64,000 nucleotides of DNA from Rhodopseudomonas palustris (GTDB lineage: Bacteria > Pseudomonadota > Alphaproteobacteria > Rhizobiales > Xanthobacteraceae): contig NZ_QYYD01000001.1 in the NCBI RefSeq assembly GCF_003591005.1, positions 1-64,000 of the forward strand. Direction: 5' to 3'. Of the stretch, positions 32,884 through 37,272 are shown one piece after another (the first letter of the stretch is position 1; the number at the start of each line of letters is the position of its first letter). Made by a program: the position numbers and the translations under genes. The notes under the pieces were generated by a model. That model saw only the letters and a list, made by a program, of their open reading frames with translations. It made no database searches and was not told the origin of the DNA.

Positions 32884-33117
32884 ATGGCCAGTTCGACCGT
32901 ATTCACCAGCAATCGCAGCCAGGCCGTCCGTCTCCCGAAGGGCGTCGCCTTCCCGGACGGTGTGCACAAGGTCGACATCCTCAAGATCGGCCGCAGCCGC
33001 GTCATCGTTCCGCAAGGCCAACGCTGGGACGACTTCTTCCTGAGCGACAGCCGAGCCAGCGAAGACTTTCTGAACGAGCGGCTGCAGCCACCCGCCGATG
33101 ATCGTGAGCTGCTGTAA
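32884..33117 (+). CDS. vapB: VapB antitoxin, AbrB/SpoVT-like
   Basis: A 77-aa antitoxin. The N-terminal swapped-hairpin DNA-binding domain (SNRSQAVRLPKGVAFPDGV, residues 9-27, and IGRSRVIVPQG) is of the AbrB/MazE-like VapB type; the C-terminal part (DDFFLSDSRASEDFL) should wrap the toxin. GGAG lies 6 nt upstream of the ATG. The stop overlaps the vapC start by one base (TAATG), giving tight coupling. Confidence 0.9.
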   Translation: MASSTVFTSNRSQAVRLPKGVAFPDGVHKVDILKIGRSRVIVPQGQRWDDFFLSDSRASEDFLNERLQPPADDRELL

Positions 33118-33515
33118 TGCTCACCTATATGCTCGACACGAATATCTGCATCTACGTCATCAAGACACATCCCCCGGCCCTGCGCGAAAAATTCAACGCA
33201 TTGGCCGAGCAGCTTTGCATCTCCAGCATCAGCCTCGGTGAACTGATCTACGGCGCCGAAAAATCAGCGCGACGCGTCGAAAATCTCGACAGAGTCACCA
33301 GCTTCGTCGCACGTCTGGAAGTCCTCCCGTTCGCCGACAAGGCCGCCGCGCACTACGGCCAACTCCGCGCCGAACTCGAACGCGCCGGTACGCCTTGCGG
33401 CGCCTACGACATGCAGATCGGCGGCCACGCGCGGAGCGAGGGGTTGATTGTCGTCACCAACAACATGCGCGAGTTCGCACGGATGCCAGGGGTGAGGACG
33501 GAGAATTGGGTGTGA
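33117..33515 (+). CDS. vapC: VapC PIN-domain ribonuclease toxin
   Basis: A 132-aa PIN-domain RNase that probably cleaves a tRNA or rRNA when free of VapB. Acidic active-site residues are Asp7 (MLDTNICIY), Glu42 (LGELIYGAE) and Asp98 (AYDMQIGGHA), followed by TNNMREF. All are present, so the toxin looks intact. Typical MTxxxLDTNI start supports the ATG at 33117. Confidence 0.92.
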   Translation: MLTYMLDTNICIYVIKTHPPALREKFNALAEQLCISSISLGELIYGAEKSARRVENLDRVTSFVARLEVLPFADKAAAHYGQLRAELERAGTPCGAYDMQIGGHARSEGLIVVTNNMREFARMPGVRTENWV

Positions 33516-33520
33516 ACTTC

Positions 33521-33550
33521 GTAGCCCGCAGGAGCGAAGCGACATGCGGG
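33521..33550. repeat. Half REP-like element, family D
   Basis: GTAGCCCGCAGGAGCGAAGC...ATGCGGG, a single arm of the family seen as pairs at 34415-34495 and 44064-44139. Confidence 0.75.
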
Positions 33551-33700
33551 ATCGACAGGTAGGTTGACGCTTCCTCCATCTCGCCGACATCCTGCGATTG
33601 TTTGCATATGAGACCGCTCCGGGCTCTTCCGCTCTGAAAATGTCTTGCACGTATCAAGGCTTGGCAGAATATACCTGATCAAGAACCAAGGAACCCCGTC

Positions 33701-33955
33701 ATGGCTCTTAGTATCAAGGATCCGGAGACCGAGCGTCTGGCACGCCATCTCGCTGAGGCCACCGGTGAGACCATCACGCAGGCAACCAAACGCGCTCTGG
33801 AAGAGCGGCTGCGCCGCGTCGGCGGAGCGTCCCGTCGAGCCGGATTGCTGGAGGACATGGCGAGCATCCGTCAGCGCTGGAGCGCCATGCCGATCCGCGA
33901 CGACCGCACGCCGGAGGAAATTCTCGGCTACGACGATCAAGGATTGCCGCGCTGA
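33701..33955 (+). CDS. vapB: VapB antitoxin, Rv0623-type
   Basis: An 84-aa antitoxin unrelated to the first. It begins ALSIKDPETERLARHLAEATGET, cut here as ALSIKDPETERLARHLAE then TITQATKRALEERL, the signature of the Rv0623/PSK-type VapB with a ribbon-helix-helix-like start. The C-terminal half (RQRWSAMPIRDDRTPEEILGYDD) is the toxin-binding tail, ending in the common GYDxxGLPR. The stop overlaps the next start (TGATG). Confidence 0.92.
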   Translation: MALSIKDPETERLARHLAEATGETITQATKRALEERLRRVGGASRRAGLLEDMASIRQRWSAMPIRDDRTPEEILGYDDQGLPR

Positions 33956-34335
33956 TGGTGATCGACACCTCCGCCATCGTAGCGATCGCGCTCGACGAGC
34001 CCGAGGCGGCCGCCTTCGAAGCGCGTATTGTCGATGATCCGGTCCGGCTCATCTCCGCCGCCACGGTGCTTGAAACGACCATCGTGTTGGAAACCCGACT
34101 CGGCGACGCGGCCGGTCGCGAATTCGATCTTTGGCTGCTCAAAATCGGCGCCGACATCGTCCCGGTCGACGCCGAACAGACGGAGGCGGCGCGCCGCGCC
34201 TGGCGCCGCTACGGCAAGGGCCGCCACCCGGCCGCACTCAACTACGGCGATTGTTTCGCCTACGCCCTGGCAGCGACCCGCGGCGAGCCGCTGCTGTACA
34301 AGGGCGCGGATTTTTCGAAGACCGAGATCGGTTAG
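33955..34335 (+). CDS. vapC: VapC PIN-domain ribonuclease toxin
   Basis: A 126-aa PIN-domain toxin matching the preceding antitoxin. It begins MVIDTSAIVAI with Asp4, and has Glu40 (ATVLETTIVLE), Asp99 (LNYGDCFAYALA) and Asp119 (KGADFSKTEI). This is the standard VapC arrangement of the VapBC family with GYD-tailed antitoxins. It appears intact. Confidence 0.93.
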   Translation: MVIDTSAIVAIALDEPEAAAFEARIVDDPVRLISAATVLETTIVLETRLGDAAGREFDLWLLKIGADIVPVDAEQTEAARRAWRRYGKGRHPAALNYGDCFAYALAATRGEPLLYKGADFSKTEIG

Positions 34336-34495: not shown

Positions 34496-34563
34496 TTGCT
34501 TTCCAAACGATCGCCCCAAGCGATGATGTCGTTCAGCCAATCGAGGACAGAGCGCCGGGTCAC
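34492..34563 (-). pseudogene. HEPN (DUF86) toxin remnant, truncated by a REP element
   Basis: A GTG overlapping the nucleotidyltransferase stop (GTGA) opens a 23-codon frame reading VTRRSVLDWLNDIIAWGDRL, which resembles the first helix of DUF86/HEPN proteins (M-T-R-R-S-V-x-x-x-L-x-D-I). It then hits a TAG supplied by the family-D repeat at 34415-34495. The rest of the roughly 110-residue HEPN domain with its RxxxxH active site is missing and not found on the other side of the repeat. Confidence 0.6.
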
Positions 34564-34877
34564 CGCAGCGGCACGAGGTCGGCTTCGATCCGGGCGGCCA
34601 CATCGGGCGCCAGCAGGCCGGCGGTGACGATCTCGACACGGCAGCCGAGTACTCGTTCGAGCGCCTGTTCGGCGCGGGCGAAATCGTACAGCGAAGTCCC
34701 CGGGGCCGCGTCGACCAGGAGGTCGAGATCGCTGCCCGGGGCATCTTCGCCGCGCGCGACGGAGCCGAACAGCCGGGGCCGGGTCATGCCGAACGTGGCC
34801 AAGATCGCGTCCAGTCGATCATGATGCGCAGCGAGCGCATCGGATGGTTTTACGACAGCGGGCGGGTCGGACAGCAT
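34560..34877 (-). CDS. MNT-type nucleotidyltransferase (HEPN/MNT antitoxin-like)
   Basis: A 105-aa minimal nucleotidyltransferase. The catalytic motif FGSVARGE (Gly38-Ser39) followed by GSDLDLLVD (Asp50, Asp52) is complete. Such MntA-like proteins AMPylate and silence a HEPN toxin encoded immediately downstream. Here the downstream HEPN frame overlaps by 4 bp but is truncated, so this is probably an orphan antitoxin. Confidence 0.85.
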   Translation of the reverse strand: MLSDPPAVVKPSDALAAHHDRLDAILATFGMTRPRLFGSVARGEDAPGSDLDLLVDAAPGTSLYDFARAEQALERVLGCRVEIVTAGLLAPDVAARIEADLVPLR

Positions 34878-35539: not shown

Positions 35540-35617
35540 GGCGGTCTCCTGCGAGCTTACGCGGCGCGCTGCGGCGCGGGCCGGTGGGAATGGGGCGTTG
35601 TCGATCTTGCGCGCGGT

Positions 35618-35647
35618 CCCGGATTTCGCTGCGCTGCATCCGGGCTA
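35618..35647. repeat. Half REP-like element, family D
   Basis: CCCGGATTTCGCTGCGCTGC...CCGGGCTAC, a single arm related to the pair at 44064-44139. Confidence 0.7.
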
Positions 35648-35665
35648 CGGGTACGCCGGGACGCG

Positions 35666-35872: not shown

Positions 35873-35963
35873 ACCCTGCCCTTGCTGCTGCGGTGTCGAG
35901 GCGCCTTGTAACCTAGCGGCGCGGCGGCGCCGCATGAAATTCGCCGTGGCGTGTGAAATCCCG

Positions 35964-35992
35964 TTGACAGCCGGCCATATTAGGATTATATA
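35964..35992 (+). promoter_or_regulatory. Strong sigma-70-type promoter
   Basis: TTGACA, a 17-bp spacer, and TATATA: a near-consensus housekeeping promoter reading rightward. Transcription would begin near 36000. No open reading frame with a ribosome site follows; the downstream DNA is GC-rich and highly self-complementary. Confidence 0.75.
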
Positions 35993-35999
35993 CCCATTG

Positions 36000-36475
36000 T
36001 CCTGTCCGTGAGGGGCGCTTCTCGAGGGCGCTTGGAAGCGGGACAGATCGTCGGCCGGGAGACCGGCCGGTGACGGTCGGCGGAGTCGCGCGATGCGGCG
36101 ACGCCCGGCCGGATGCGGCGTCCTGCGCGGTGTGTCTCGCACGCACATCGTCCGGGAAGTCGAGGGCCACCGTCCGCCGCTACTACGAGCGGCCGCCGCT
36201 TTAAGAGGCTGGACGGGTCGAGAGGAGGCCGGGGAAAGCCCGCAAGCTCGCTCGGTCCCGGAAGCACGGTCCTTCGGCTCAAAACTCGCCGCGGTGGGCG
36301 CGCCGGAAGGCGTCGCGCGAGGGATCGCAGCCCTCGCGACAAGCTCCACCACTCTGCGCCGACCGGCGCGCCCCCGCCCCTCGCTGTGAAGCGACAGGAG
36401 CAAACCTCGGGCTCAGCAGAGCCGCGAGAACGAAGCGGCGTGGCTATTCGAACGACAGGGCTGTTTGACACGTGA
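36000..36475 (+). ncRNA. Candidate structured non-coding RNA, unknown family
   Basis: About 480 nt with no convincing gene, directly behind the promoter at 35964-35992. It folds into many strong helices. CTGTCC at 36002 pairs with GGACAG at 36041. A 7-bp CGGCCGG helix closed by a GAGA (GNRA) loop lies at 36052-36069. A TCGCT/AGCGA helix with a GTGA (GNRA) loop lies at 36381-36394, and a CTCGGGCTC/GAGCC...CGAG hairpin at about 36407-36428. I could not match it to RNase P RNA, tmRNA, SRP RNA or 6S RNA. The 3' end is uncertain. Confidence 0.45.
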
Positions 36476-36520
36476 ATCAAAATTTGGCGGTGAAGCAGAG
36501 CGGCCGCCCCACTCTCCGAC

Positions 36521-36634
36521 GTCATCGCCCAACTTGATCGGGCGACCAGTATTCCAGGGCTTTCGCCGGTCGGCCGTGCAAACACCGCGAGCACTTTGCA
36601 ATACTGGGTCATCCGCTTTTCGTGGAGGATGACG
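36521..36634. repeat. Palindromic intergenic repeat, family F
   Basis: Outer arms GTCATC/GATGAC and inner arms CCAGTATT (36546-36553)/AATACTGG (36600-36607) make an imperfect 114-bp palindrome. Only one copy is seen in this window; the type resembles degenerate intergenic repeats of rhizobial genomes. Confidence 0.6.
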
Positions 36635-36714: not shown

Positions 36715-37272
36715 TCACTTCAGCTTCAGCAATTCCTCCCGCGCCTGCTCGAGTTGCGGCAATTGCTGTTTGGCGAAGCGGCGTACGTCGTCATTGTCCG
36801 GATGCAGCAGATAGCGCCGCAACAGGCCGATCGCGCCGTCGATGTCTTCCTTCTGATTGTCGAGATAGTCGCGGATGAATGCGGCGCCGACTTCGCCCTG
36901 CAGACCGGCGAGTTCGTTGCGACGGATCAGGCTGGGATCGGGCGCGAAATTGATGTTGAGCAGGCCGAACATGTTGAGACGGCCGATCTCGATCTCGCGC
37001 TGTCGGGCCTGCTCGGCCTGAGTCGCCGCGAACTGTCGGATTCGCTCGTCGCCGCGTGTCTCCGCGAGACCGTACGAGCGCAACTGCACCATGTTGAATT
37101 CGTGCAGCAGCCGCAGCACATCGTGCTCGTTGGGGGGCCAGCCGAACAGCCGCTTGAAACCGATATCCTCGAGCAGCGAGCGCTTACGCGGCGTCTCGGA
37201 GCCGGCGATCGCACCGGCAAATACGACGATCGCCGGGAGGATTGCAACCAGCCCGGCGATCAATCGGATCAT
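36715..37272 (-). CDS. DUF4142-like exported hypothetical protein
   Basis: A 185-aa protein with an N-terminal hydrophobic segment (MIRLIAGLVAILPAIVVFAGAIAGS quoted in part: LVAILPAIVVFAGAIAG, residues 8-24) acting as a signal peptide or anchor. The rest is helical. Its C-terminal half (FIRDYLDNQ ... DDVRRFAKQQLPQLEQAREE) resembles the ferritin-like DUF4142 pattern in which a D-x-x-x-x-x-FA-x-x-x-LP motif precedes the last helix. Last of three small genes in tight series. Confidence 0.6.
   Translation of the reverse strand: MIRLIAGLVAILPAIVVFAGAIAGSETPRKRSLLEDIGFKRLFGWPPNEHDVLRLLHEFNMVQLRSYGLAETRGDERIRQFAATQAEQARQREIEIGRLNMFGLLNINFAPDPSLIRRNELAGLQGEVGAAFIRDYLDNQKEDIDGAIGLLRRYLLHPDNDDVRRFAKQQLPQLEQAREELLKLK

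Follow-up and report, generated by a model that had tools for sequence, protein, structure and literature searches.

Among described bacterial RNAs, ROOL, GOLLD, and OLE are large and have complex folds supported by covariation; according to PMC12286853, phages and prophages carry ROOL and GOLLD, frequently close to tRNA islands, and the function of GOLLD is described there as unknown. The RNA discussed here, predicted from a 64,000-nt stretch of Rhodopseudomonas palustris DNA (the window), resembles these in size and in its covarying, complex fold. However, unlike ROOL and GOLLD, its family has no match in a pattern scan of viral contigs or in the phage collection, has a tRNA in only 1 of 60 loci (a subset of 80), and is present in many copies per genome; it also has no Rfam match at threshold.

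Closer in taxonomy, the sRNAs BjsR1 to BjsR10 and the repeats Br-REP1 and Br-REP2 have been described in Bradyrhizobium, of the same bacterial family, and BjsR5, -6, -7, and -10 are multicopy like the window family, with two to four copies; however, the blot marker RNAs of that study are 60 to 160 nt, and no promoter-bearing RNA family of ∼450 nt is seen in the available part of it (PMC5082802). A table in PMC6337395 lists BjrC1505 among names of Rfam style, which suggests that it is an Rfam family. An Rfam 15 search of the element, however, gives no such match. Madhugiri 2012 is said to have predicted the BjrC sRNAs by comparing Bradyrhizobium and Rhodopseudomonas, and the window RNA may be a BjrC sRNA without Rfam registration. 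Ribosomal RNA genes, which are multicopy with similar bodies and locus-specific promoters, resemble the window family in that one respect. A description of the window RNA was not found in the mostly open-access literature searched (including the available text of PMC4842269, PMC3091675, PMC6337395, and PMC12286853), and the RNA gene family is apparently undescribed.

The window locus

The promoter of the window copy has an exact −35 TTGACA (35964 to 35969, + strand) and a −10 TATATA (35987 to 35992, + strand), the latter lying within the imperfect palindrome AGGATTATATACC, of which GGACTATAGTCC and AGGAATATATTCCT are relatives by eye. The near-consensus TTGACA-N17-TATATA had been placed at 35964 to 35992 by an earlier note on this DNA, is present there, and has no other match in the 64-kb window when up to two mismatches are tolerated (0.17 expected). 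The predicted RNA extends on the + strand from 35999 to about 36470, as defined by BLAST homology edges and the alignment of copies; its first conserved base opens GTCCTGTCC, and its last conserved block ends in GGCTGTTTGACA. The ∼480-nt structured noncoding locus of the earlier note is kept as to structure, with its edges redrawn to a conserved unit of ∼35999 to ∼36470, but it is not a single locus: it belongs to a dispersed gene family with copies in its own genome and genus.

Several other features lie in this part of the window. At 36500 to 36566 is another dispersed repeat, short and REP-like (CGTCATCGCCC...GACCAGTATTCCAGGG), which has nine further short matches in the same genome, and a REP-like palindrome around CGCTGCGCTGCATCCGGGCTACGG is at 35603 to 35660, with many genus matches among the matches listed. 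Two PIN-domain toxin/antitoxin-like pairs and a nucleotidyltransferase-domain protein are encoded at 32884 to 34335 and 34560 to 34877; one pair combines a MazE-like protein (below Pfam's cut-off) with a PIN protein, and the other an Rv0623-like protein with a PIN protein.

Distribution of the gene family

By these comparisons, positions 35999 to ∼36470 are one member of a dispersed family of promoter-bearing, predicted RNA genes. In a DNA search, six more near-full-length copies are found in the same genome along with several fragments, and there a covariance model of the conserved core (R1) gives at least 11 core matches. DNA matches are present in 15 of the 16 genus genomes, with only a 27-base one in genome G003, and range from 0 to 28 per genome, fragments included. 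A set of 56 near-full-length copies from 14 genus genomes (the window plus 55 of 60 stretches covering both ends, five partial ones having been dropped) start with GTCCTGTCC or close variants, corresponding to window position 35999, finish near GGCTGTTTGA, and fall into two length classes of 448 to 460 and 473 to 493 nt.

The R1 searches used strict filters and scored no more than 20, 13, and 10 candidates per genome in the family, order, and class sets, respectively, so that the following counts are minimum values and a missing match means little. Within the GTDB family, the core is found in at least 102 of 198 genomes and at least 31 of 47 sampled genera, with 1 to at least 20 matches per family genome, although not in G001 and G003 of the same genus. 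At least 7 of 297 order genomes match, two from the same family and five from other families (at least eight matches in G432, at least two in G357, and at least one each in G310, G352, and G516), and in the sequences from other families a 5′ hairpin and a core like those of the window family are visible by eye, least clearly in G516; among 385 class genomes, only the window's own matches. An earlier blastn search, restricted to two candidates per genome, had given at least 67 of 296 genomes and at least 17 of 47 genera, an undercount superseded by the covariance model. The suggestion that the RNA is specific to Rhodopseudomonas/Bradyrhizobium thus does not hold, the core being present in at least 31 of 47 family genera and five genomes of other families. 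An RNA pattern gives no exact match in viral contigs, and there is no match in plasmid or phage collections; a phage, plasmid, or viral origin was set aside on the basis of these three collections.

RNA fold and covariation

When folded as a single sequence, the + strand of 35999 to 36475 scores better than 100 of 100 shuffles (z = −2.3), whereas the − strand does not (z = 0.1; 51 of 100). A folding z-score alone is weak, and comparison of the copies settles the structure. RNAalifold applied to alignment A2 (43 copies) gives 109 pairs in 21 helices, with 97.8% of cells paired versus 37 to 48% for slid partners and 90.9% for shuffles, 35 of the 109 pairs changed on both sides (24.1 in shuffles), and a covariation score of 0.233 versus 0.110 (shuffles) and 0.025 to 0.050 (slid); none of 500 shuffles reaches any observed value, and derivation of the fold from the same alignment favors it over its slid versions. 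A2 contains 43 of 80 copies, hand-picked as Rhodopseudomonas-type and of regular length, which favors a clean alignment, and it omits other genera as well as the Rhodopseudomonas-type L077, L102, L106, L110, L114, L120, L123, L193, L223, and L226.

The core was also aligned separately (A1, 73 of the 80 copies; the script skipped six because of their length or identity, and L229 was taken out manually). This alignment has 24 pairs, of which 11 are changed on both sides. With a custom tree-based null, 80 copies yield nine pairs at E < 0.05; five are within the fold, all in the core at 36111 to 36217 and canonical in 80 of 80 copies, and the other four are noncanonical class markers. That set comprises 110 copies (17 without a recognizable 3′ motif being left out) minus 12 aberrant ones removed by hand, with the remaining 98 reduced to 80 by merging rows at least 93% alike. 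Compensatory changes in the helices of homologues, proposed beforehand as a check, are thus found in both analyses, at 35 of 109 pairs in A2 and five pairs under the tree-based null.

All elements of the fold are on the + strand. The 5′ hairpin domain (35999 to 36048) pairs CUGUCC...GGGACAG around an inner GGGCGC/GGCGCU-type stem, and its helices 2 and 3 are paired in 99.4% and 98.1% of cells, respectively (43 copies); by eye, similar 5′ hairpins also occur in genomes from other families of the order and in a second RNA class described below. Next is a hairpin (36050 to 36070, helices 4 and 5) with a GAGA loop at 36059 to 36062, whose helices are 84.9% and 98.3% paired with one pair in each changed on both sides (43 copies). 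The conserved core (36111 to 36217), the basis of R1, contains a hairpin at 36133 to 36145 with UCGCA (36137 to 36141) in its loop, a hairpin at about 36177 to 36192 with ACUA in its loop, and a third hairpin at about 36196 to 36208. Further 3′, a long helix GGTGGGCGCGCCGG / CGGCGCGCCCCC encloses a covarying arm (helices 17 to 19, 36293 to 36375 from the alignment), followed by helix 20, a hairpin at 36376 to 36399 with a GTGA loop at 36386 to 36389, and helix 21, the terminal hairpin CTCGGGCTC-AGCA-GAGCCGCGAG (36406 to 36428), which lies within the profile region found by nhmmer in Bradyrhizobium-type repeats.

Both GNRA loops pointed out in the earlier note are where it placed them and cap hairpins of the family. 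By position-limited regular expressions, the first (GAGA position) is found in 64 of 109 copies, 44 of them with GNRA, the second (GTGA position) in 63 of 109 (28 with four-base GNRA and 30 with GNRA plus one base), and UCGCA is seen in 70 of 109. UCGCA is invariant and ACUA nearly so in A1, and some more distant copies differ in UCGCA.

Strand, coding potential, and comparison with Rfam

G-U pairs outnumber A-C pairs by 365 to 30, pointing to the + strand. Among 625 insertions and deletions relative to the window, counted per copy, 577 are not multiples of three, and a protein-coding sequence was rejected on the strength of these frame-breaking changes. Depending on which frame is read, 6 to 14 of 109 copies are open over their whole length, and such frames may be due to chance in G+C-rich DNA.

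The proposed search of the element against Rfam (release 15) returns no family at threshold. The earlier view that the element lies outside the standard large RNAs agrees with this lack of a match at the gathering threshold. At E values up to 10, only a subthreshold Gut-1 match is obtained, upstream of the element at 35905 to 35964, and no rRNA family is among the matches of the window element. Twelve related loci yield only six subthreshold matches, including microRNA models beside copies, and one of the six, PyrR210 in L272, lies over a core on the opposite strand. What remains of the earlier proposal of an uncharacterized structured RNA is its central part, with covarying helices, a conserved promoter, and no Rfam family at threshold, whereas its genus specificity is lost and it had missed the multicopy nature of the RNA.

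Some specific origins were also considered. A group II intron or retron-like origin finds no support, with no RVT_1 domain found in the same genome in a search in which controls matched in 3 of 14. HEARO, the IscB omega RNA, is not among the Rfam matches at E values up to 10, the HEARO model being presumably part of the Rfam library, and a search of the same genome for IscB-type RRXRR found none, with the positive control silent too.

Promoters of the copies

A sigma-70 match scoring at least 10 of 12 is positioned just upstream of 54 of the 56 genus copies, compared with 0 of 336 control stretches further upstream scoring above 8 of 12. TTGACA is exact at −35 in 51 of the 56, with at least five of six bases in 55, and the −10 sequence is TATAGT in 38, TATAAT in 14, and TATATA in the window copy only; the best spacer is 16 in 55 copies and 17 in the window. 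The window promoter is thus a divergent member of the family promoters (spacer 17, TATATA). The −10 element is inside a palindrome in many genus copies (GGACTATAGTCC and variants, by eye).

In a further set, promoters were typed at 80 loci out of 88 stretches found in Afipia, Rhodopseudomonas, Tardiphaga, and metagenome-assembled genomes of the order. The script assigned 41 upstream regions to type A (TTGACA-type), 31 to type B, and left eight unclassified, which by eye are five B-like, two A-like, and one masked. Type B promoters have ATCCCCGC ... TTATGTT, often with GGGGATNNNNATCCCC, and in Afipia-like genomes the arrangement ATCCCCGC ... AACCTCTCTTATGTT occurs with GGGGATNNNNATCCCC as an operator-like palindrome (L309 to L330; L270, L277, L281, L284, and L287). 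In G432, which belongs to another family, each of the five copies inspected has a type B region before it by eye, and a stricter type B pattern has no match there. The type B motif occurs at 22 places in two of four genomes searched (the Afipia-like G079 and G040), and every one of these 22 is followed by a member RNA, which is of the window type at 18 places and of a second class at four.

A second RNA class

These four type B loci in G079 and G040 encode an RNA matched by a Bradyrhizobium-type profile, with best E values per locus from 6e-15 to 4e-35, and all four RNAs end in a very similar GGCTGTTTGAAA block. The window-family profile finds three of the four only weakly, in its 3′ part (E from 0.0003 to 0.019). 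In the Bradyrhizobium-like genus g25, this distant second class is the only one found; the search pattern, which we take to be a Bradyrhizobium repeat, occurs in six of eight g25 genomes, and in a small search 8 of 16 g25 loci match the 3′ part of the window-family profile (E from 0.0055 to 1.2e-6); they have a 5′ hairpin similar to that of the window family by eye. With the type B promoter, 5′ hairpin, and 3′ end occurring in both, the two RNA classes share these three features. RNAs of the second class are longer and Bradyrhizobium-type (L293 to L307, L310, L312, L319, and L327), and several g25 loci of this class have another upstream motif, AAAATATTCCACTTTACCGAAATTCGG.

Evolution of the copies and their neighborhoods

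Bodies and promoters of the copies have different patterns of relatedness. Compared with five paralogues in its own genome, the window has a body 83 to 94% identical and a 60-nt promoter 45 to 58% identical, whereas compared with four orthologues these values are 72 to 81% and 63 to 79%; five of six near-full-length paralogues entered this comparison, the sixth, L077 (G000:C2), which is 66% identical to the window by BLAST, being left out together with partial copies. Among the 56 copies, the nearest body is in the same genome for 45% (11% in shuffles, 32% at most) and the nearest promoter for 29% (10% in shuffles, 27% at most), and mean body identity is 0.81 within genomes and 0.725 between them. 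RNA bodies thus show partial homogenization within genomes, and promoters largely stay with their locus; the within-genome likeness of bodies would most simply be caused by gene conversion. Pairs of copies with one flank in common and the other not are seen by eye, which suggests recombination between copies.

The window locus is one of five among 136 loci, itself counted, with shared ORFs on both sides (the GST/zinc-ribbon side and downstream), and one of these, L057, is from another genus. A DUF721-like gene is common to 8 of 136 loci, representing seven distinct places (L059 and L201 are the same), and three of these loci also have an SMC-like gene; these two genes and the zinc-ribbon gene were named by eye. 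Among the 16 genus genomes, the RNA is kept at the window locus in five (G000, G002, G012, G008, and G013) and is present as remnants in three (G014, G010, and G009; L133, L134, and L148, respectively) that still show TTGACA or something close to it, with the RNA lost or decayed. These three represent losses, not empty targets. In the other eight, the stretch compared contains the zinc-ribbon gene but neither GST nor the RNA. With the RNA at this locus in 5 of 16 genomes and no core found in G001 and G003, the copies are dispensable.

Possible roles of the RNA

On balance, sequence comparison points to the locus probably being a gene of a multicopy family of large structured noncoding RNAs (about 400 to 500 nt) with a stable, trans-acting product, likely a protein scaffold or decoy or an RNA-only particle. 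RNA polymerase would start at about 35999, and differently regulated promoters would yield nearly the same product, a stable RNA made in quantity and acting in trans; several copies with several promoter types and similar products argue for such a trans-acting RNA needed in quantity. The RNA would most likely scaffold or decoy a protein, or form an RNA-only particle, through its conserved loops, and gene conversion between copies would keep the product similar, as in rRNA genes. A function as scaffold or decoy is proposed with moderate confidence.

The main rival, which we consider rather unlikely, is a selfish promoter-carrying repeat, akin to a bacterial SINE or MITE, whose RNA structure serves its own spread only. 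Such a repeat would fit with the dispersal of the family and its variable numbers (the 0 to 28 matches per genus genome, fragments included), the defined edges and diverse flanks of copies in the genus set, the copy pairs that share one flank as if recombined (by eye), and the window locus being without the RNA in 11 of 16 genus genomes in the stretches compared. Conserved structure is expected of a selfish element too and counts against the scaffold or decoy reading, and the partial nature of the homogenization (L077) and the presence of the RNA at the window locus in only 5 of 16 genomes lower that reading further and raise the selfish repeat. But no ORF cluster is beside more than 8 of 136 loci among the 12 largest clusters listed (an ABC-ATPase-like ORF, named by eye, is near eight, in mixed positions), no RVT_1 reverse transcriptase is found in the genome (with the 3-of-14 control result noted above), and the viral contig scan and the plasmid and phage collections give no match. 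Moreover, three element-free versions of the window locus are decayed remnants rather than empty targets, and some neighborhoods are common to different genera; target-site duplications were looked for by eye only.

It is quite improbable that the copies form a family of long base-pairing regulatory sRNAs induced by different promoters, for which the multicopy Qrr and LhrC sRNAs are analogues. Copies under different promoter types and conserved single-stranded loops are consistent with this, but the usual base-pairing sRNAs are shorter and less folded than the window-type RNA. Hfq-dependent ones have a 3′ U-run after a terminator hairpin, and no + strand terminator-like site or T-run is present near the 3′ end of the window RNA, nor are terminators seen by eye at the 3′ ends of other copies.

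A cis-acting leader or attenuator of neighboring genes is very improbable. Among 44 copies with a gene call, the downstream gene shares the strand of the RNA in 16, as a leader would have it, but lies on the other strand in 28, so that the RNA is not generally an mRNA leader; the gene caller is crude and wrong on the window's own downstream gene; the DUF4142 gene downstream of the window copy (36715 to 37272) is convergent to the RNA, and neighbors differ between copies. That the structure is a functionless product of chance in G+C-rich DNA, for which the single-sequence z of only −2.3 might speak, is extremely improbable in view of the covariation, the promoter conservation, and the distribution.

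Significance

Large structured RNA classes are few, and those that have been characterized (ribozymes, 6S, tmRNA, and OLE) matter. The window RNA family has a clear fold, a defined start, and a conserved promoter, is present in many sequenced relatives, among them the laboratory genus Rhodopseudomonas, and is unusual in having multicopy, partly homogenized genes. If the RNA is inert, the family would still be of a rare kind, a bacterial repeat that carries a promoter and conserves the fold of a large RNA. A broader reading is a tentative possibility: these RNAs may form a new class among large bacterial RNAs, encoded by a chromosomal multigene family that evolves in concert as rRNA genes do and comprising two sister classes with the promoter, 5′ hairpin, and 3′ end in common. 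In Rhodopseudomonas, Afipia, and other Hyphomicrobiales, they would build an abundant particle made of RNA or of RNA and protein.
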